This document shows, one piece after another, positions 4,832 to 15,325 of a stretch of DNA of 46,919 bases. Position numbers and translations under genes: made by a program. Within the stretch, counting starts at the first letter, position 1. Every line of letters begins with the position of its first letter. The DNA is taken from contig JAAYVN010000035.1 of the NCBI GenBank assembly GCA_012517155.1, positions 1-46,919 of the forward strand. Direction: 5' to 3'. This DNA comes from Ignavibacteriales bacterium (lineage in GTDB: Bacteria > Bacteroidota > Ignavibacteria > Ignavibacteriales > Ignavibacteriaceae). The notes beneath the pieces are model-generated. The model was given only the letters and a program-made list of their open reading frames with translations, was not told where the DNA came from and did no database searches.

Positions 4832-6127
4832 ATGAAAAAGATTTCTATTTCGGATTTGTCAAAATATGTTGGGGAAGAAATATCAATCTCCGGCTGGGTT
4901 TATCATAAACGCTCAAGCGGTAAATTGCACTTTGTGGTTCTGAGGGATGGCACCGGCTACCTTCAGTGCGTATATTTTAAGAACAATGTTTCCCCGGAGG
5001 TCTTCGAACTTACCGAGTCTGTTGGTCAGGAGTCTTCCGTTATTTGTAAAGGTACGGTTAAAGAGGATAAAAGAGCCCCGGGGGGCTTTGAGCTTGATGC
5101 AAATGACTTTACGGTTATTACTGCGGCTACCGACTACCCGATCACTCCAAAAGATCACGGTATTGAGTTTCTTATGGACCACCGCCATCTCTGGCTTCGC
5201 TCAAGTAAACAGGTGGCTATCCTGCGTGTCCGTCACCGCATTATTAAAGCTATCCGTGACTTTTTCGACGGTAATGGCTTTACACTGGTCGATTCTCCTA
5301 TTCTGACACCTTCCGCCTGTGAGGGGACATCCACTCTCTTTTCTACCGACTATTTCGACCTTGGCAAGGCTTATCTTACGCAGTCAGGTCAGCTTTACGC
5401 CGAAGCAGGTGCAATGGCGCTCGGTAAGGTCTATACTTTCGGACCTACTTTCAGAGCTGAGAAATCAAAGACCCGCCGCCATCTTACAGAGTTCTGGATG
5501 GTTGAACCGGAAGTGGCTTTTAATGATCTTAACGATAATATGGACCTCGCAGAGGAGTTCCTTGAGTATGTTGTTCAAACTGTGATCAGGGAAAGGGAAG
5601 CCGAACTGAAAATCCTTGAACGAGATATCACTAAACTTCAGAATGTTAAACGCCCCCTCCCCAGAATTTCCTATGACGAGGCGGTTGAGATCCTCAGGAA
5701 AAACGGCGTTGAGTTTGAGTGGGGGAATGACCTCGGCGGCGGTGATGAGACGATTATTTCGAATCAGTTCGACCGCCCGGTTATGGTTCACAGATACCCT
5801 TCCGAGGTGAAAGCTTTTTATATGAAACGCGATCCCGAGAATCCGAAGGTTGCTTTAGCTGTTGACGTGCTTGCCCCCGAGGGGTACGGAGAAATTATCG
5901 GCGGCAGCCAGAGGGAGGATAGTCTTGATCTTCTGCTGGAAAGAATTGCCCAGCATAATCTTCCGCTGGAGGATTTCCAGTGGTATCTTGATCTCAGAAG
6001 ATTCGGCTCTGTTCCTCACGCCGGCTTTGGACTTGGTATTGAAAGAACTGTCGGCTGGATTTGCGGTCTTGATCACGTCCGCGAAACCATTCCGTTCGCC
6101 AGAATGATTTATAGAAAAACTCCCTGA
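4832..6127 (+). CDS. asnS: Asparaginyl-tRNA synthetase
   Basis: A class IIb synthetase that charges tRNA-Asn with asparagine in the cytoplasm. The N-terminal OB-fold anticodon domain covers about 1-105. Class II motif 2 is at 207-222 (FRAE...RHLTEFW, with the AsnRS-like [11 protein letters not shown] continuation), GGSQRED lies in the catalytic domain, and motif 3 starts near 398 (GFGLGIERT). At 431 residues it is shorter than many bacterial AsnRS proteins (about 465) and close to the compact archaeal-type AsnRS/AspRS2 size. An AAGGA site precedes the ATG. AspRS is the main alternative, but motif 2 favours Asn. Confidence 0.93.
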
Positions 6128-6169: not shown

Positions 6170-6685
6170 ATGACTCTGGAGATTATCTTATTCATATTGT
6201 TTGCCCTGATAGGTGCTGCATCGGGCGTGCTGATGATAACACGGAAAAATCCCGTTATGTCCGCCCTCTTTCTTATTCTGAATTTTGCGGCGCTTGCCGG
6301 TGTTTACCTCCTGCTTAATGCGCAGTTCATCGCGGTTGTGCAGATTATTGTCTATGCCGGGGCTATTATGGTCCTCTTCCTCTTTGTGATAATGCTGCTT
6401 CGCCCCGATGCGGAAATCAGTATCCTCAGAACCAACCCCCTCCTGAAGTATGTTGCCATTGGGGTTGGCGTCCTGGTGTTTGCTCAGCTGATTTATCTTA
6501 TCTTTTTCTTTAAGCCGCTGAATATTACCCCTTCTGATGTTGCTGAGAGGATCCAAATTGGTACGGTTGAAAATATCGGTACTGAAATCTATACAAAATA
6601 TATAATTCCTGTGCAGGTTGCCGGGTTCCTCCTTCTTTCCGCTACTATCGGCGCACTTGTACTCGCTAAAAAGAAATTTGAGTAG
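6170..6685 (+). CDS. nuoJ: NADH-quinone oxidoreductase subunit J
   Basis: A membrane-arm subunit of respiratory complex I in the inner membrane. The 171 residues hold about five transmembrane helices, with the NuoJ signature YAGAIMVLFLFVIML near residues 61-75 in the helix that contains a pi-bulge in known structures. It opens the complex I block, 42 bases after asnS and 3 bases before nuoK. No Shine-Dalgarno site is obvious. The peripheral-arm genes (nuoA-I) are not in this window, although nuoJ usually follows nuoI directly. Confidence 0.95.
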   Translation: MTLEIILFILFALIGAASGVLMITRKNPVMSALFLILNFAALAGVYLLLNAQFIAVVQIIVYAGAIMVLFLFVIMLLRPDAEISILRTNPLLKYVAIGVGVLVFAQLIYLIFFFKPLNITPSDVAERIQIGTVENIGTEIYTKYIIPVQVAGFLLLSATIGALVLAKKKFE

Positions 6686-6688
6686 TCT

Positions 6689-6991
6689 ATGATACCTGTT
6701 GAATATTATCTCGTCCTTAGCGCTTTTATGTTTACAACCGGAGTTATCGGGGTTTTAATACGCCGTAATGCTATTGTTCTTTTTATGTCTATCGAGCTTA
6801 TGCTAAACTCGGCTAACCTGACTTTCGTCACTTTCGCTTCCTTTCTTGGTGATTCAGCCGGGCAGGTTTTTATTTTCTTTGTAATGACTGTGGCAGCCGC
6901 CGAAGCCGCCGTGGGTCTTGCTATTATGATTGCCCTCTTCAGGAATAAACAGACTCTGAATGCAGACGAAGTTAACGTCCTTAAATGGTGA
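6689..6991 (+). CDS. nuoK: NADH-quinone oxidoreductase subunit K
   Basis: A small MrpC-like subunit of complex I with three transmembrane helices in 100 residues. The two membrane glutamates needed for proton transfer are present at E36 (SIELMLN) and E72 (AAAEAAVG), the same numbering as in E. coli NuoK. Lies 3 bases after nuoJ and 52 bases before nuoL. Confidence 0.96.
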
Positions 6992-7043
6992 TCCTTTGAG
7001 ATTAATTTGGAATTTATAAACTTATACTAACTTAATTGAGCAG

Positions 7044-8984
7044 ATGATTAACTGGATTTATTTGACTGTTGCCCTCCCGATGATTGGTTTTCTGATAAAC
7101 GGATTGCTCGGGAGCAAAATAAAAAATGAAAAGGTAATCGGGATAATAGGCAGTAGCGCTGTCGGCATCCCTTTCCTTATATCGGTCGTTGCGTTGTTCG
7201 AACTGCTGGCTTTGCCTAATGATCAGCGGGTTTTCAATGTTCCGCTTTTTACCTGGCTTTCCTCAGGCTGGTTGAATGTCAGCTTCGCATACCGAGTTGA
7301 CCAGCTTTCGATTGTTATGGCTCTGGTCGTTACCGGCGTTGGGTTCATAATTCATATCTATTCTATAGGTTATATGCATGGCGATAAAGGATTCTGGCGC
7401 TTCTTTGCATACCTGAATCTCTTTATCTTCGCTATGATGAACCTGATACTTGCCGATAATTTCCTCCTCCTTTTCCTTGGCTGGGAAGGGGTCGGACTCT
7501 GTTCCTACTTATTAATTGGTTTCTGGTACGACCGGAAATTTGAAAAGTCAACCACCTCAGATGCGGCAAAAAAGGCTTTTATTGTAAACAGGATAGGGGA
7601 CTTCGGCTTCCTTTTGGGAATGTTTCTTATTTATATAACATTTAACAGTCTTAATTTTGCCGAGGTTTTTTCCAGGGCAGCTGCTCTCTCCATTCCCACA
7701 TATGTTTTTGAGTTTATAGCTATCTTCCTTTTTATCGGCGCCACGGGCAAGTCGGCACAGATACCTCTTTTTGTTTGGCTCCCGGATGCAATGGCCGGTC
7801 CGACTCCAGTTTCTGCACTTATACATGCTGCTACCATGGTTACTGCAGGTGTTTATATGGTTGCCCGTTGCTCGATTATTTTTGCACTCGCTCCCTCCGC
7901 TATGGCAGTGGTTGCGGTTATAGGGCTTCTTACAGCTGTTTTTGCTGCTTCTATCGGACTGGTTCAGAATGATATTAAAAAGGTTCTGGCTTACTCTACC
8001 GTCAGCCAGCTTGGATATATGTTCCTTGCGCTCGGACTTGGAGCTTTCTCCGCTGCCATTTTCCACGTTATGACTCATGCATTTTTCAAAGCCCTCCTCT
8101 TCCTGGGTGCCGGATCTGTTATTCACGGTATGCACGAGGAACAGGATATAAGCAGATACGGCGGGCTTAAAAAATATATGCCCACAACGTATATAACCTT
8201 CCTTCTCGCTAGTATTGCAATCGCGGGCATTCCTCCTTTCTCCGGGTTCTTTAGCAAGGATGAAATTCTCTGGCATGCGTACATTAACGGCGGTTTGTTT
8301 GTCTGGATTATCGGTGTATTCACCGCACTCCTTACAGCATTCTATATGTTCCGGCTTGTGTCCTTGACATTCGAGGGGAAGGAACGGTTCGACCATCATT
8401 CGGTTCACCCGCACGAGTCTCCAAAAGTAATGACCATTCCGCTTATCGTTCTTGCGATCCTTTCTGTTATTGGCGGATTTATCGGTATTCCTGAAGTCTT
8501 TTCGGGAACCGGCGGAAATTTGTTTTCTTCATGGCTTGAACCGGTATTCAAAACTGCGAATTCAAAAATTCATCATTTCGGATTGCATTCCCATTTCGAG
8601 GAAATCCTTTTGATGGCTTTATCCGTTGCCGGGGTTGTTTTCTCTATCTGGCTTGCCAGACATATATATATTAAAAATACCCGGATCGCTGATTCCGTGG
8701 CTGCTAAGTTCAAAGGCTTTTATTCCCTTCTCCGGAATAAATATTTTATAGATGAGCTTTACGATTCCACGGTGGTTAACCCGATTAAAAAAGTTTCGGA
8801 AAACCTTCTCTACAGGATCAACGATGTTAAGATAATTGACGGGGCGGTTAACGGTACTGCTGCCCTGGTTGACAAACTCTCCGCTTTAATAAGGAAATTC
8901 CAGACCGGCGCTGTGCAGTTCTATGCAGTGATTATGGTCTTCGGAATTGTAGTTGCTTTATTCTGGATTTTATTAAGTCTTTAA
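7044..8984 (+). CDS. nuoL: NADH-quinone oxidoreductase subunit L
   Basis: The distal antiporter-like (MrpA-type) proton pump subunit of complex I, 646 residues with about 16 transmembrane helices. Key pump residues are visible: E148 in GWEGVG, K236 in ATGKSAQ, the broken-helix motif WLPDAMAGPTPVS from 245, and H261. The C-terminal part after about residue 520 matches the amphipathic lateral-helix region and final helix. Only 3 bases separate it from nuoM, so the two are probably co-translated. Confidence 0.96.
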   Translation: MINWIYLTVALPMIGFLINGLLGSKIKNEKVIGIIGSSAVGIPFLISVVALFELLALPNDQRVFNVPLFTWLSSGWLNVSFAYRVDQLSIVMALVVTGVGFIIHIYSIGYMHGDKGFWRFFAYLNLFIFAMMNLILADNFLLLFLGWEGVGLCSYLLIGFWYDRKFEKSTTSDAAKKAFIVNRIGDFGFLLGMFLIYITFNSLNFAEVFSRAAALSIPTYVFEFIAIFLFIGATGKSAQIPLFVWLPDAMAGPTPVSALIHAATMVTAGVYMVARCSIIFALAPSAMAVVAVIGLLTAVFAASIGLVQNDIKKVLAYSTVSQLGYMFLALGLGAFSAAIFHVMTHAFFKALLFLGAGSVIHGMHEEQDISRYGGLKKYMPTTYITFLLASIAIAGIPPFSGFFSKDEILWHAYINGGLFVWIIGVFTALLTAFYMFRLVSLTFEGKERFDHHSVHPHESPKVMTIPLIVLAILSVIGGFIGIPEVFSGTGGNLFSSWLEPVFKTANSKIHHFGLHSHFEEILLMALSVAGVVFSIWLARHIYIKNTRIADSVAAKFKGFYSLLRNKYFIDELYDSTVVNPIKKVSENLLYRINDVKIIDGAVNGTAALVDKLSALIRKFQTGAVQFYAVIMVFGIVVALFWILLSL

Positions 8985-8987
8985 TAT

Positions 8988-10493
8988 ATGGAAAATAACA
9001 TAATTACATCGGTTTTGCTCTTCGTTCCCCTGGTAGGGGCGATGCTGGTTCTTCTGTTCCCGCAAAAAAATGCCCCACTTATCAGATTCTGGGGACTGTT
9101 TGTTTCTCTGGTTACCTTTGTGGTTTCCATGGTTATTTATACCGGCTTTGACCCATCCGTTTCCGGATTCCAGTTTGTTCATAAGATTGCCTGGATACCC
9201 TCACTTAATATAACTTACTATCTCGGGATTGACGGTCTTTCCATTCTTCTGATACTGCTCACTACTTTCATTACTCCGCTTAGTCTCATTTCCAGCTGGA
9301 AAAGTACAGGGCATAAGGTGAAGGAGTTCACATTCTTTATGCTGCTGCTTGAAGTCGGAATGCTTGGCGTTTTTCTGTCGCTCGATATTTTCCTCTTCTA
9401 TATTTTCTGGGAAGCAATGCTAATCCCCATGTATTTCATAATTGGTATCTGGGGTGGGAAAAGAAGAATATACGCTTCGGTTAAGTTTTTTATCTTTACG
9501 ATGGCAGGAAGTCTTGTGATGCTGGTTGCCATGATCTGGCTTGCCGTATATGCTTCTGAACAGCTCGGCTCGTTCACTACAAACCTGCTTGATTTGTATA
9601 AAGTCGGTCCGAATGTCCCTCATAATATCCAAAGCTGGATGTTCCTTGCATTCACTCTTAGTTTTGCAATCAAGGTTCCACTGTTCCCGCTTCATACGTG
9701 GCTACCCGATGCCCACGTCGAGGCTCCTACTGCCGGCAGCGTAATTCTTGCAGGAGTTCTGCTTAAAATGGGTACTTATGGATTAATCCGTTTCTGTCTC
9801 CCCCTTTTCCCGCAATCCTCGATTCAGTTCGCCCCGTATATTAGCGTGCTGGCAATTATCGGAATAATCTATGGAGCTCTGGTTGCTATGGTACAGAGCG
9901 ATATGAAAAAGCTTGTTGCATATTCCTCCGTTGCTCACCTTGGTTTTGTGGTGCTCGGTATTTTTGCATTTACTGAGGAAGCCATGCAGGGGGCAATAAT
10001 TCAGATGGTTAACCACGGCTTGTCTACCGGTGCACTCTTCCTTCTTGTGGGGGTAATCTATGAAAGAACTCATACCCGTGAAATTGCCGACTACGGCGGA
10101 ATCGCTAAGATTGTTCCGGTTTATGCTACCGCTTTGATGTTTACTTCCCTCTCCTCGATCGGGCTTCCGGGACTGAATGGTTTTATTGGCGAGTTCCTGA
10201 TCCTTCTCGGTACGTTTAAATCATCCGTGCTCGGAAACTGGTGGTTCGCGGTCTTCGCTACAAGCGGTGTGATCTTTGCAGCTGTCTATCTTCTCTGGAT
10301 GTATCAGCGCGTCTGCTTTGGCAAGGTTACTCATGATAAACTGAACAAACTTGAAGATTTGAACACCAGGGAACTAGTGACGTTACTCCCGATTTTTGTA
10401 TTTATTGTCTGGATAGGTATCTATCCTTCAACTTTCCTCAGACTCTCCGAAGTCTTTTCGAATAGTCTGATTAATTACATTATGAAAATCTAA
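8988..10493 (+). CDS. nuoM: NADH-quinone oxidoreductase subunit M
   Basis: The middle antiporter-like (MrpD-type) subunit of complex I, 501 residues with about 14 helices. Conserved charges are E142 (FWEAMLIPMY), K229 (AIKVPLFPLH), the WLPDAHVEAPT motif at 238-248, and K260 (LLKMGTYG). In most bacteria nuoN follows directly; here the next gene, 5 bases away, is an ion/proton antiporter of a different family. Confidence 0.96.
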   Translation: MENNIITSVLLFVPLVGAMLVLLFPQKNAPLIRFWGLFVSLVTFVVSMVIYTGFDPSVSGFQFVHKIAWIPSLNITYYLGIDGLSILLILLTTFITPLSLISSWKSTGHKVKEFTFFMLLLEVGMLGVFLSLDIFLFYIFWEAMLIPMYFIIGIWGGKRRIYASVKFFIFTMAGSLVMLVAMIWLAVYASEQLGSFTTNLLDLYKVGPNVPHNIQSWMFLAFTLSFAIKVPLFPLHTWLPDAHVEAPTAGSVILAGVLLKMGTYGLIRFCLPLFPQSSIQFAPYISVLAIIGIIYGALVAMVQSDMKKLVAYSSVAHLGFVVLGIFAFTEEAMQGAIIQMVNHGLSTGALFLLVGVIYERTHTREIADYGGIAKIVPVYATALMFTSLSSIGLPGLNGFIGEFLILLGTFKSSVLGNWWFAVFATSGVIFAAVYLLWMYQRVCFGKVTHDKLNKLEDLNTRELVTLLPIFVFIVWIGIYPSTFLRLSEVFSNSLINYIMKI

Positions 10494-10498
10494 CTAAT

Positions 10499-11926
10499 AT
10501 GAAAAAAATAATCTGTCTCTTCTTCGTTTTCGCTGCGTTGGCATTTATAAGTGTCTCTGCTCCGGTTTATGCCGCTTCGCCTGATAATATTCCGGTTGAG
10601 AACCTTGATTCTTCTCACAGTAGCTCCGAAGCTCATCCTCTTCCTACTCCCTATATGGTAATTCCCTTTATTGTCCTTCTGTTAATGATTGCTTCCGGAC
10701 CTGTTTTGTATCATCACTTCTGGGATAAATTTTATCCCCTGATTTCGATTGTCCTGGGATTGATAACCGCTGCTTATTATTTCATAATTCTGCACGATCC
10801 CTCGGCAGTGCTTCACTCGGTTGTTGAGTACCTATCTTTTATTGCGCTTCTAAGCTCCCTCTTCGTTGCATCAGGTGGGATCCTAATTAAAGTGGATAAA
10901 AAAGCAACCCCACTTATCAACGTCCTATTCCTCCTCTTCGGTGCGGTGATATCGAATGTTATTGGAACTACCGGCGCATCGATGCTTCTGATTCGTCCTT
11001 TCATAAAAATTAATAAGGGCAGGATCAAACCTTACCACATAATCTTCTTTATTTTTGTAGTGAGCAATACAGGAGGTGCTCTTACGCCTATCGGAGATCC
11101 GCCCCTGTTTCTGGGCTTCCTTCGGGGTGTTCCTTTCTTCTGGGTTATTCAGCACGTCTGGTATATCTGGATACCCACCATTCTTATGATACTTCTTATT
11201 TTCTATCTAATCGATTCAAGAAATAAAAGCGGCGAAACATCTTCTGAGGAATACTCAGGCAGGATTGAGTTCAGGGGAATCAAGAACGTTATTTTCCTTC
11301 TGATAATTGTTATTTCTGTTTTCATAGATCCGGGCGTTATGAGCTGGGTTCCAAGTCTCCATCCTTTCCCTCTTGGAATAAGGGAAATCATTATGTTCTC
11401 GATGGTCTATATTGCCTATAAATTTGCGGACCAGAGTATCCTGAAATCGAATGAATTTGACTTTGGACCAATCAAGGAAGTTGCATATCTCTTCGTCGGA
11501 ATATTCCTTACTATGATCCCCGCGCTTCAGTTGATAGCCTATGAATCAAAGGTACTTCACGATCACCTCAATGCAACCACTTTCTACTGGGCAACTGGAA
11601 CTCTCTCCTCTTTCCTCGATAACGCTCCCACTTACCTGAATTTCCTTAGTGCAGCTATGGGGAAGTTTGGTCTGGATGTTAACTCAATGGCTAATGTTAA
11701 GGAGTTTGTGATTCACGATGAAATTTATCTCCAGGCTATTTCCGTTGCAGCGGTCTTCTTTGGAGCATGTACCTATATCGGTAACGGACCTAACTTTATG
11801 GTTAAGTCAATAAGCGAACGTTCCGGTATCCAGATGCCAAGTTTCTTTGCTTACATGTACAAGTATTCGCTGCCGGTTCTTATTCCGGTATATTTCATTA
11901 TCTGGCTCATATTTTTTAACGCATAA
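10499..11926 (+). CDS. Na+/H+ antiporter-like membrane protein (NhaD/CitMHS-type)
   Basis: A 475-residue polytopic inner-membrane protein of the ion transporter superfamily. It starts with a signal-like segment (1-25) and a hydrophilic stretch with Ser/His (about 30-47). About 11 helices follow, with family loops SNVIGTTGASMLLIRP, NTGGALTPIGDPPLFLG, SSFLDNAPTYLNF and TYIGNGPNFMVKSI. The two paired GDPP/GNGP-type loops are typical of the NhaD/citrate-transporter fold; ion and direction of transport cannot be read from sequence. It lies between nuoM (5-base gap) and the small gene before nuoN (14-base gap), with no terminator, so it is very likely co-expressed with complex I. It is not one of the Mrp-type subunits. 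Confidence 0.8.
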   Translation: MKKIICLFFVFAALAFISVSAPVYAASPDNIPVENLDSSHSSSEAHPLPTPYMVIPFIVLLLMIASGPVLYHHFWDKFYPLISIVLGLITAAYYFIILHDPSAVLHSVVEYLSFIALLSSLFVASGGILIKVDKKATPLINVLFLLFGAVISNVIGTTGASMLLIRPFIKINKGRIKPYHIIFFIFVVSNTGGALTPIGDPPLFLGFLRGVPFFWVIQHVWYIWIPTILMILLIFYLIDSRNKSGETSSEEYSGRIEFRGIKNVIFLLIIVISVFIDPGVMSWVPSLHPFPLGIREIIMFSMVYIAYKFADQSILKSNEFDFGPIKEVAYLFVGIFLTMIPALQLIAYESKVLHDHLNATTFYWATGTLSSFLDNAPTYLNFLSAAMGKFGLDVNSMANVKEFVIHDEIYLQAISVAAVFFGACTYIGNGPNFMVKSISERSGIQMPSFFAYMYKYSLPVLIPVYFIIWLIFFNA

Positions 11927-11940
11927 GTTGTGAGATTGTT

Positions 11941-12309
11941 ATGAAAACTTTGGATGATGTACTGAAAAATAAAATTCACGGAATTTATTACGGCAAGCGA
12001 ATCCTCCTTCCGTTTGCGGCGAATTTTTTGAAGATTGTGGTTGAGGACGATGTGATCTCGGATTTCTCCGACAGCACTGAGAGCGGCGTTATAATCGAGG
12101 AAAAGGAGAATTTTACAAATATATATTTCCTTGAGTATAAGAAAATCAACGAGGCTGTCGGTAAGTTCAAAGGAATAAAAATTCTCCTCGCAGAAAAGGA
12201 TAAAGATATCTTTGATTTTGCAAATCACAGGAAATTGGTTCTCTATCTCCGGGAAGAGCATGTAGTGGAAATTGAAGAACTTGATAAAGAAATTATTTTT
12301 ATAGACTAA
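11941..12309 (+). CDS. Unknown 122-residue soluble protein in the nuo operon
   Basis: I do not recognise this protein. It is small, charged and without signal peptide or membrane helix; it starts MKTLDDVLKNKIHGIYYGKR and ends in an acidic, beta-rich tail (EEHVVEIEELDKEIIFID). Alternating hydrophobic and charged residues suggest a compact alpha/beta fold. It is wedged between the antiporter-like gene (14 bases) and nuoN (3 bases), in the same strand and without its own terminator, so translation coupled to nuoN is likely. A cytoplasmic partner or regulatory domain for the neighbouring antiporter is possible, but this rests on position only. Confidence 0.75.
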   Translation: MKTLDDVLKNKIHGIYYGKRILLPFAANFLKIVVEDDVISDFSDSTESGVIIEEKENFTNIYFLEYKKINEAVGKFKGIKILLAEKDKDIFDFANHRKLVLYLREEHVVEIEELDKEIIFID

Positions 12310-12312
12310 ATT

Positions 12313-13743
12313 ATGATACCATCATTACAAGACCTTTTTAATATACTCCCGCCGGTTATTATCGGAGCGGGAATCCTTATCGCACTTACGCTTGAAATGT
12401 TCGTAAAACCGGCTAAGAAAATTATCCCTCATTTTGCTTTTCTGGTTTTCCTCTTCACTGCGTACTATTCCCTGATGACTATGGATAAGGAGACTTATTC
12501 CCTCAATACCCTGATGAGCGGAGGGGGATTGACGAATATTCTTTATTTTATTTTTACTTTCGGAAGTGCGATTGTTGTCCTTATTTCGTATGACTTCATC
12601 CGCAAGAAGGATATCGTCTCATCCGAGTATTATATCCTCCTGATGTCCGCTGTCCTTGGAATGATGATAATGGCTTCCGCAAAGGACTTCCTTATGGTCT
12701 TTCTTGGTCTGGAACAGATGTCCGTTTGCTTTTATATCCTTGCCGGTATCAACAGGCGTAATCTCCTTTCAAACGAAGCCTCGCTGAAATACTTTTTGCT
12801 CGGCGCATTTGCCACCGGTTTTATTGTTTACGGGATCGCGTTTATATACGGAGCTTCCGGTTCTCTGTCTTATCTGGTGATCACAAACGCTATTGTCACC
12901 GGGCAAAATATAACATTTCTGACTATTGGTCTTCTACTTTTCATAATCGGATTCTCTTTTAAAATCGCAGCTTTTCCGTTCCACATGTGGGTTCCCGACG
13001 TTTATCAGGGCGCCCCAACTACCGTATCGGCTTTTATGTCAACCACCGGAAAAACCGCTGCATTTGCGGTTTTAATAGCCTTGCTTCTGCCCCTTTTTAC
13101 CGTTGGCAATTATCAGATATTCGGTCCAGTTTTGTCCTTACTGGCGGCTTTGTCCATGATCTACGGCAGTATTGTTGCAATCGCTCAAAAGGATATTAAA
13201 AGAATGCTTGCATACTCTTCGATAGCTCATGCCGGCTATATGCTCATCGGTATTGCGGCTGGTATTCCCGCCGGCTCGGCAGGAGTGATTTACTACCTGC
13301 TTGCATATACGTTTATGAATATCGGCGCTTTCGGGATAGTTGCATATCTTGAGGGAGTGGAAGAGACAAATTTACATATTGAGGATTATGCCGGACTCGC
13401 AAACCAAAAACCGGTGCTTGCTGCACTCCTCTCTTTATTCATGTTTGCTCTGGCGGGAATTCCTCCTCTGGCGGGCTTTTTCGGAAAGTATTATGTCTTC
13501 GTGGCAGCCATTAAAGCCGGTCTTGTGTGGCTTGCTCTGGTGGGTATCGTATCCAGCGCAATCAGTGTCTACTTTTATCTGCGCCTTGTTGTTTATATGT
13601 ATTTCAGGGAAAACTCAAAAACTATAACGGTGTTCGATTCTTCCTATTCGATGTTGGGTATTATTATAGCCGCCTTGCTTGTAATAATTGTCGGTGTTTT
13701 CCCGAATACAGTGGTTGAGTTAATTACACATTTTATAAGTTAA
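12313..13743 (+). CDS. nuoN: NADH-quinone oxidoreductase subunit N
   Basis: The proximal antiporter-like subunit of complex I, 476 residues with about 14 helices. E134 (GLEQMSVCF), K217 (SFKIAAFPFH), the MWVPDVYQGAPT motif from 225 and K247 (TGKTAA) are present, so all three pump subunits in the window keep their proton-path charges. Separated from nuoM by two foreign genes. Followed 13 bases later by nnr. Confidence 0.96.
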   Translation: MIPSLQDLFNILPPVIIGAGILIALTLEMFVKPAKKIIPHFAFLVFLFTAYYSLMTMDKETYSLNTLMSGGGLTNILYFIFTFGSAIVVLISYDFIRKKDIVSSEYYILLMSAVLGMMIMASAKDFLMVFLGLEQMSVCFYILAGINRRNLLSNEASLKYFLLGAFATGFIVYGIAFIYGASGSLSYLVITNAIVTGQNITFLTIGLLLFIIGFSFKIAAFPFHMWVPDVYQGAPTTVSAFMSTTGKTAAFAVLIALLLPLFTVGNYQIFGPVLSLLAALSMIYGSIVAIAQKDIKRMLAYSSIAHAGYMLIGIAAGIPAGSAGVIYYLLAYTFMNIGAFGIVAYLEGVEETNLHIEDYAGLANQKPVLAALLSLFMFALAGIPPLAGFFGKYYVFVAAIKAGLVWLALVGIVSSAISVYFYLRLVVYMYFRENSKTITVFDSSYSMLGIIIAALLVIIVGVFPNTVVELITHFIS

Positions 13744-13756
13744 AAGAGGTTTAATT

Positions 13757-15325
13757 ATGCAGCCTCTCTTTTCTGTTCAGCAGAGCAGAGGGCTTGATGA
13801 TTATGCGATCAACAAGCTTAATTATCCTTCCCTCTTGTTGATGGAAAATGCTGCTAACAGCATTTTTACCAAGATAGTAAAATATAACCCGGAGTTAGGT
13901 CCCTCCGACAGGATCGGAATAATCTGTGGAAAGGGAAATAACGCGGGGGATGGCTTTGCGCTTGCCCGCATCTGCGTGGCAAAGGGGGTTGCAGTGCAGC
14001 TTCTTTGCCTTTATGATGAATCTGAACTCTCTCCGGATTCCTTCACAAACTTTAACATCCTTAAAGCCCTTGAATCAAAAATTCTCAATATCAAGCGCTT
14101 TACATCGGTTAAGGACTTGAGCATATTTAAGGATTGCACAATTATTGTGGATGCTATCCTTGGAACGGGCGCACAGGGTCCGCTCGTTGAACCGCTTAAA
14201 TCAATAGTGGAAAAATTGAATTCCATGGAGGCTTTTAAGGTTGCTGCCGATGTGCCTACCGGACTAAATGCTGACACCGGCTTCGGGGATACTGTTTTTG
14301 AAGCTGACCTTACAGTAAGTCTTGGCACTTTGAAACGCGGTTTGTTTATTGGTAGGGGATATGAATATGCGGGAATTGTTGAGCTGGGATTTATTGGGGT
14401 TGACTATGATTGGGTTTCGTATCGCTTTACCGACTTCCTGATTGAAAAACATGATATTCCTTATATTTTTCCAGTGAAGAAAAAGACTGTAAACAAATAC
14501 TCAGCCGGTAAGGTGCTCACTATAGGAGGTTCCGGGCGTTATGTCGGTGCCGCGGAATTCACCGCTTTCTCCGCAATGAAAGTAGGTGCGGGTGCATCGG
14601 TGCTTGCTGTCCCTGCATCTGTCAAGAATAATTTTAACCGCTTTCCTGAACTGGTTCTCCAACCTTATCCCGATAACGATTACCCCTGGCTTTCTGCGGA
14701 TGCTGTCGATTCGCTAGAAAAAAGTATTGAGTGGGCGGATGTCATTACCGTCGGTCCCGGTCTCGGCAGGGAGGAGGATACTATTGAGGCGGTTGTGTAT
14801 CTCCTTTCAAAATTTACTTCCAAAGTTTTTGTTATTGACGCGGACGCCCTTTTTGCTCTTTCAAAAGCCGGAGTAAAAAAACTTATGCTCAAAAATTCAA
14901 TACTCACTCCGCATCTGGGCGAGTTTGAATTGCTATCCGGTGTCCCTCTCTCTGAACTTGAACAAGATCTACTGAGGGCAGGAAGACAGTTTACTAAATC
15001 GTTTGGTCCTTGCCTTGTTCTTAAAAACCCAAAGACAATAATGTTTACCCCAAGCGGTGAGGCGTTTGTGAATAATGTTGGGAATCAAGGACTGGCTAAG
15101 TTCGGAAGTGGCGATGTACTTACAGGAATAATCGCAGGTGTGGCAGCCCAGAAGACAAACCCCAGATTTGCTAATATGGACCTTGGTGTGGCAGTGCTTG
15201 CCTCAATTTATCTGCACGGCTTCGCAGGGGATCTACTGCGAGAAAAATCCACTGAGTATGGCTTTACAGCAACTGATATTATAAAAATCCTTCCAAAAGC
15301 AATCAAAAAATTAGTAAAAGAATGA
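13757..15325 (+). CDS. nnr: Bifunctional NAD(P)H-hydrate epimerase/dehydratase
   Basis: Repairs NADH and NADPH damaged by hydration. The N-terminal YjeF-type epimerase domain (about 1-220) has GKGNNAGDG at 58-66 and interconverts R and S hydrates. The C-terminal ribokinase-like domain (about 230-515) dehydrates the S form using ADP or ATP and carries FGSGDVLTG with catalytic D453. The full two-domain length of 522 is kept. Being 13 bases behind nuoN links nicotinamide repair to the NADH-using complex. Its stop codon overlaps the next ATG (ATGA). Confidence 0.94.
   Translation: MQPLFSVQQSRGLDDYAINKLNYPSLLLMENAANSIFTKIVKYNPELGPSDRIGIICGKGNNAGDGFALARICVAKGVAVQLLCLYDESELSPDSFTNFNILKALESKILNIKRFTSVKDLSIFKDCTIIVDAILGTGAQGPLVEPLKSIVEKLNSMEAFKVAADVPTGLNADTGFGDTVFEADLTVSLGTLKRGLFIGRGYEYAGIVELGFIGVDYDWVSYRFTDFLIEKHDIPYIFPVKKKTVNKYSAGKVLTIGGSGRYVGAAEFTAFSAMKVGAGASVLAVPASVKNNFNRFPELVLQPYPDNDYPWLSADAVDSLEKSIEWADVITVGPGLGREEDTIEAVVYLLSKFTSKVFVIDADALFALSKAGVKKLMLKNSILTPHLGEFELLSGVPLSELEQDLLRAGRQFTKSFGPCLVLKNPKTIMFTPSGEAFVNNVGNQGLAKFGSGDVLTGIIAGVAAQKTNPRFANMDLGVAVLASIYLHGFAGDLLREKSTEYGFTATDIIKILPKAIKKLVKE

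Follow-up and report, generated by a model that had tools for sequence, protein, structure and literature searches.

The closest described counterpart of the locus studied here comes from the thermophile Rhodothermus marinus. The basic layout goes back to a 2005 report on this one organism, which the initial annotation does not mention: Melo et al. (BBA 1709:95) reportedly placed an nhaD gene, its product later called NhaE, and a pcd gene amid those for complex I. This nhaD is presumably the gene of the R. marinus antiporter that confers Na+ resistance. According to the part of PMC9408914 that treats it, the R. marinus antiporter makes E. coli resistant to Na+ but not to Li+ (Melo et al. 2006), and work on it led to the proposal of the NhaE family, TC 2.A.111. 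R. marinus is also one organism with reported Na+/H+ exchange by complex I, and PMC4607728 cites Na+/H+ antiporter activity for particles from E. coli and from R. marinus, together with a paper about how an antiporter inhibitor decouples complex I of R. marinus. The old question behind such reports is whether complex I itself moves Na+. Searches of an open-licence library listed no title or abstract opening that dealt with an antiporter in the nuoM–nuoN junction; it was a reference list and a review that led to the R. marinus reports. Here we analyse a window, i.e. the whole 46,919-nucleotide stretch of an Ignavibacteriales genome, in which an antiporter-like gene and a small gene lie between nuoM and nuoN. 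The explanation that we favour with moderate confidence is that an NhaE-like Na+/H+ antiporter of the IT superfamily and a cytosolic companion are co-expressed with the membrane arm of complex I. Complex I would build the proton gradient; the antiporter, a separate membrane protein, would spend part of that gradient pushing Na+ out, and the 122-aa product of the small gene would most likely bind or regulate the antiporter. The small-protein family and its pairing with the antiporter are new, as is the evidence that this junction has been filled more than once, by unrelated antiporters.

Gene order in the window and in relatives

All genes of the window considered here lie on the forward strand. 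The window encodes nuoJ (6170–6685; PF00499, E 1.4e-39), nuoK (6689–6991; PF00420, E 1.1e-29), nuoL (7044–8984; TIGR01974, 796.4 bits), nuoM (8988–10493; TIGR01972, 632.9 bits) and nuoN (12313–13743; TIGR01770, 437 bits), and the products of the last three all score far above the cut-offs of these TIGRFAM-type models (NCBIfam). The slot bordered upstream by nuoM and downstream by nuoN holds the antiporter-like gene (10499–11926; 475 aa) and the small gene (11941–12309; 122 aa). The ORF coordinates bear out the order and the gaps of 5, 14 and 3 bases given in the initial annotation; these gaps are too short for a promoter between the genes, one within coding sequence being possible, and the four genes are likely co-transcribed. 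Left of the cluster is an ORF (4832–6127) that, from the look of its sequence, we take to be asparaginyl-tRNA synthetase-like (asnS), and the same left neighbour is found in relatives with and without nuo genes or the antiporter. Directly 3' of nuoN is a YjeF_N/Carb_kinase gene (NAD(P)H-hydrate repair; 13757–15325; PF03853, PF01256), which keeps its place in many of the loci viewed and does so even in 4 loci without nuo genes. The initial annotation had further noted that complex I looks intact, with key Glu/Lys residues kept in the three pump subunits, and this agrees with the high family scores of NuoL, NuoM and NuoN, the intact nuoM and nuoN genes, and the presence of GWEGVGLC, GATGKSAQIPL and FSKDEI in NuoL, of FWEAML, AIKVPLFPLHTW, LLKMG and GEFLIL in NuoM, and of GLEQMS, SFKIAAFPFHMW and FFGKYY in NuoN, motifs that we take to contain the key Glu/Lys residues known from the E. 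coli subunits. Elsewhere in the source genome, contig C33 carries nuoA- to nuoF-like genes (named by inspecting the sequence, except for NuoD, which PF00346 identifies). Contig C159 has a second complex I cluster, which provides a same-genome control: it has no insert between its nuoM-like ORF (6247–7848) and its nuoN (7861–9363), which are 12 bases apart. Two PF00999 exchangers are encoded elsewhere in the genome, so the window's antiporter is not its sole candidate antiporter.

The insertion is real and conserved. Far from being unique to this assembly, the gene order on which the initial annotation hinged recurs in related genomes. Some antiporter match is present in 57 of the 61 genomes of the window's family, and 44 have a full-length homologue of at least 56% identity. 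The antiporter adjoins nuoM in all 44 and is followed by nuoN in 43; in the other genome (G024) the contig ends after the antiporter, and a different contig begins with the small gene and nuoN. Recurrence in 44 family genomes argues that the arrangement is not due to chance. The small gene occurs in 40 of the 61 genomes, all within the 44 with a close antiporter, and lies between antiporter and nuoN in 39, the 40th being G024, where it is beside nuoN on the other contig. A second antiporter subfamily (42–46% identity) is not beside nuo genes in the five loci viewed (L046–L050). One genome (G023; L039, 661–3794) has two tandem antiporter paralogues between nuoM and the small gene. Extending the search to a class sample of 149 genomes gave the antiporter in 90 (E ≤ 1e-60) and nuoN in 140 (E ≤ 1e-90), and 53 genomes of the former set have the antiporter upstream of nuoN, on the same strand and no more than 12 kb away; the remaining 37 include contig breaks, nuoN genes 16–19 kb away (3 genomes), nuoN matches below threshold and truly separate genes. 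The order is kept in three families, f1, f2 and f39, of which f2 may be Melioribacteraceae, judging from the likeness of NuoM and of the locus (L149, L150); the small gene was confirmed in 5 of 5 fetched loci of f39. At three loci of families f36 and f40 (L249, L250, L266) nuoM and the antiporter are adjacent, and nuoN is 7–16 kb away or on another contig.

Other occupants of the junction and their history

Three unrelated kinds of antiporter occur in line in the nuoM–nuoN junction. Within family f3, for example, a CitMHS_2 antiporter stands there alone in L234 (G138) and L238 (G157) and together with a PF00999 exchanger in L235 (G064), and L273 (G260) has a PF00999 exchanger alone, 73% identical to that of L235. 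L199 and L233 (G115) have a CitMHS_2 antiporter, then Mrp genes, then nuoN, and L256 (G276) shows the start of this arrangement before the contig ends. CPA exchangers are thereby found in line in 2 genomes and Mrp genes at 3 loci; L248 (G251) has a PF00999 gene within an opposite-strand insert. Other inserts are non-antiporters, namely a hydrolase in L270 and, encoded on the opposite strand, a 987-aa protein in L247; these, like the Pterin_4a genes without an antiporter described below, count against our favoured explanation. Fifty-seven class genomes have nuoN without the window's type of antiporter, and the 20 that were fetched form the only sample unselected for the antiporter, a small and mixed one: by coordinates, nuoM and nuoN are adjacent in 15, one has a PF00999 exchanger, one a hydrolase and one a possible 86-aa ORF, and two have no nuoM upstream. 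Among 16 further genomes of the phylum, a Pterin_4a-like gene lies between nuoM and nuoN without an antiporter in 5, before nuoN at a contig end in 2 and together with an antiporter in 1, and no recognised gene lies between in 8 (assignment by Pfam for L287 and L290 and by tblastn for the others). Gaps above 300 bp occur between nuoM and nuoN in 87 of 104 cases, a number inflated by the many loci fetched for carrying the antiporter, versus 4/68 for nuoL–nuoM, 0/52 for nuoK–nuoL and 0/49 for nuoJ–nuoK, which serve as controls. An apparent fusion of nuoM and antiporter in L259 (G304) was rejected, the frames differing and the two genes being separate.

Some arrangements lie just outside the junction. 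A distant antiporter (34% identity) in family f23 is divergent and next to nuoL (L291, 1–1278; G086); by coordinates, of the 13 f23 genomes with an antiporter match, 8 have it on the strand opposite to nuoN at a distance of about 4.3 kb. Mrp E/F/G genes occupy that place instead in L288 (4917–6032; G168), and in G086 as in G168 a Pterin_4a-like gene separates nuoM from nuoN. On a Phycisphaeraceae contig (L222, 3640–11308), a CitMHS_2-like antiporter is immediately preceded by Mrp-type genes, and we read the NuoL/NuoM-like matches there as Mrp subunits.

A 140-row antiporter tree was built from 170 rows, reduced to 165 by dropping five cut at contig ends and then by dropping 25 near copies; L233 and L256, where NuoM-like, Mrp and antiporter matches overlap, were labelled nuo-linked by hand. 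This tree requires 9 changes of linkage to nuo, at least 4 of them forced by well-supported branches, compared with a mean of 47 after shuffling. The nuo-linked CitMHS_2 antiporters are divided between two separate subtrees. All trees were quick searches, and the groups for AU tests were named once the 140-row tree was known, which makes the following p-values optimistic. On a 58-row tree of hand-picked rows, a single clade of all nuo-linked antiporters is rejected (p-AU 2.5e-59), as is one uniting the window's group with other Ignavibacteria (p-AU 8.3e-10), and one uniting the window's group with Rhodothermus-type antiporters is not (p-AU 0.338); L045, a long-branch row of the window's group, falls outside that group. 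Judged by these trees, one origin for all nuo-linked CitMHS_2 antiporters is rejected. A NuoM tree of 59 of the 71 extracted sequences rejects the window's group and Rhodothermus as one clade (p-AU 4.9e-47, groups likewise chosen post hoc). Since the antiporter and NuoM trees disagree, the two genes have no single common history, and the junction appears to have been filled or refilled more than once.

Could the junction simply be a tolerant landing site, with inserted genes that have no functional tie to complex I? The varied contents of the 20 class genomes without the antiporter would fit such a site, as would the Pterin_4a genes that stand in the junction without an antiporter in 5 of the 16 phylum genomes (plus the 2 cut by contig ends). 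We nevertheless consider it unlikely, given that antiporters of three unrelated kinds are in line there and that the order is kept across f1, f2 and f39. Selection for joint production of a proton pump and a sodium exporter is what unrelated antiporters in one junction hint at, and a broader proposal, which we offer tentatively and do not hold to be the probable one, is that Na+/H+ antiporters have landed time and again in this junction in Ignavibacteria and relatives: CPA, Mrp and no fewer than two CitMHS_2 lineages would have entered separately, with a proton pump and a sodium exporter on one transcript being favoured repeatedly. If the R. marinus operon, like many related ones, codes for a separate antiporter, that protein could account for some of the Na+/H+ exchange attributed to R. 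marinus complex I. Speaking against such a reassignment, PMC4607728 cites Na+/H+ antiporter activity for E. coli membranes too; this activity and the small, mixed, unselected sample of 20 genomes lower the odds of the proposal. The sample also tells slightly against our favoured explanation and slightly for the tolerant landing site.

The antiporter-like protein and the 122-residue protein

The antiporter-like protein matches PF16980 CitMHS_2 with 472.9 bits (E 1.2e-141), against a curated cut-off of 25.7, and PF03600 CitMHS with E 2.2e-10; it has no match to PF00361 Proton_antipo_M at E ≤ 1 (all Pfam), the family matched by NuoL, NuoM and NuoN at 1e-76 or better. NCBIfam, which may or may not contain an NhaD model, gave no transporter model at E ≤ 1. 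Within the NhaD/CitMHS type first assigned, NhaD seems a loose label, as gene order points to NhaE, the closest characterised relative by that measure. The protein is 56% identical to that of a Rhodothermus sp. MAG contig with the order nuoM-antiporter-PCD-nuoN. Sequence searches of the PDB returned no match, and none was confirmed in viral contigs. An AlphaFold2 model based on a 52-sequence alignment (pLDDT 91.3) has ArsB as its best structural match (10tp_A; Z 31.1, 390 aligned, rmsd 3.9), followed by dicarboxylate, sulfate and phosphate carriers, with VcINDY (6okz_B) at Z 22.1, 374 aligned and rmsd 5.0, and the protein is predicted to have the IT-superfamily fold. D200, E327 and D374 are identical in all 52 aligned sequences.

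Proteins with this fold also carry dicarboxylates, phosphate and arsenite, as the structural matches illustrate, which weighs against a Na+/H+ assignment. Transport of an anion such as citrate, a dicarboxylate or arsenite in place of Na+/H+ exchange would suit the Pfam name ('putative citrate transport') and the order of the matches with ArsB first, and seems to us rather improbable, because CPA and Mrp antiporters replace or co-locate with the window-type antiporter and because Na+ resistance is reported for the R. marinus antiporter (excerpt of PMC9408914). The same resistance, the Rhodothermus-like gene order and the unrelated Na+/H+ antiporters that sister families have in the junction make Na+/H+ exchange the best reading of the window's protein, with Na+ presumably moving outwards. 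To this extent the respiration-linked Na+/H+ exchange suggested in the initial annotation would stand; its other suggestion, an accessory module of complex I, fares worse (see below).

The 122-aa protein has no hydrophobic segment, in line with its first description as soluble, and no match in Pfam or NCBIfam at E ≤ 1. Pterin carbinolamine dehydratase (PCD) was considered and rejected, PF01329 Pterin_4a giving no match at E ≤ 1 and being absent from the families listed for a 30-member alignment of the protein. Its model (14 sequences; pLDDT 84.2) consists mostly of strands. Foldseek found no match to it in the PDB at E ≤ 0.001, the best result of a second structural search was a ZP domain (Z 6.1), which may be a mere common arrangement, and a profile of the protein found nothing better than E 1 among PDB sequences. 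A phylum sample of 148 genomes has the small gene in 31: the 10 in f1 and f2 all have it next to the antiporter, and the other 21 belong to family f17, whose label Chlorobi-like reflects the grouping of its antiporters with those of named Chlorobiaceae in the 140-row tree. It adjoins the antiporter in 15 of these 21, with nuoN on another contig or more than 100 kb away, suggesting that the small protein probably serves the antiporter. Its separation from the antiporter in the other 6, 4 of them with a DUF389-type gene beside it, counts against our explanation. Those neighbours are membrane proteins (L227, L228, L229 and L232; DUF389-type by Pfam for L227 and by the look of the sequence for the other three), divergent from the small gene in three of the four loci, and they stand where the antiporter would otherwise be. 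Found with antiporters in two lineages, the 122-aa family is a new candidate antiporter partner.

Relation to complex I and to known systems

The antiporter survives without the nuo cluster. Three relatives (G069, G111, G122) have the order asnS-antiporter-small gene-yjeF without nuoJ–N at the same site, and a fourth (G126) has the antiporter alone between asnS and yjeF, again without nuoJ–N; nuoN has no match at E ≤ 1e-90 in these four genomes, the best being distant nuoN genes at 7.7e-71 to 6.9e-78. The reverse is seen in G022 and G025, which have nuoJKLMN at the asnS...yjeF site without the antiporter and small gene. The G069 site is not free of respiratory genes, a point against our explanation: roughly 2.1 kb beyond the small gene begins a NuoM-like gene (31%) that belongs to another cluster. 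Because the antiporter persists at the asnS...yjeF site in four relatives that have lost this nuo cluster, we regard it as a probable stand-alone Na+/H+ exchanger, co-expressed with complex I, and not as a subunit. Its retention in four genomes that lack a nuoN orthologue, the existence of nuo clusters without it, and Chlorobi-like genomes with both genes away from nuo all speak against the accessory module of the initial annotation. Docking of the antiporter as an additional subunit of the membrane arm, making complex I both an H+ pump and a Na+/H+ exchanger, would account for large gaps being common at the M–N junction and rare elsewhere in nuoJ–N, and for the antiporter activity of R. marinus membranes and the inhibitor decoupling cited in the excerpt of PMC4607728, yet is very unlikely in view of these persistence patterns in both directions and the discordant antiporter and NuoM trees.

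A separately acting exchanger produced with complex I can be compared with several known systems. Complex I with an extra NuoM, reportedly described by Chadwick in 2018, resembles the window in that an extra ion-moving protein is encoded in the nuo cluster; it differs in that the window's extra protein has no PF00361 match. Mrp operons encode Na+/H+ antiporters with large subunits that match PF00361, as NuoL/M/N do, and they occur in the same junction at three loci, but Mrp is a multi-subunit system, and a search for MnhE in the source genome gave no match. The NhaE family shares the IT superfamily with the window's antiporter, and a Rhodothermus sp. homologue sits at the same place with the 56% identity noted above, the activity of the window's protein being a prediction. 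The R. marinus system differs in its small gene, which is Pterin_4a (PF01329) there, with Pfam matches of 5.3e-26 to 2.4e-31 for four Rhodothermus-type small proteins, and belongs to an unrelated family in the window; moreover, the NuoM proteins of the Rhodothermus and window groups do not form one clade. Common to both are nuoJ–N genes set apart from nuoA–F-like genes and, at Rhodothermus-type loci as in the window, an antiporter and a small gene between the genes for NuoM and NuoN.
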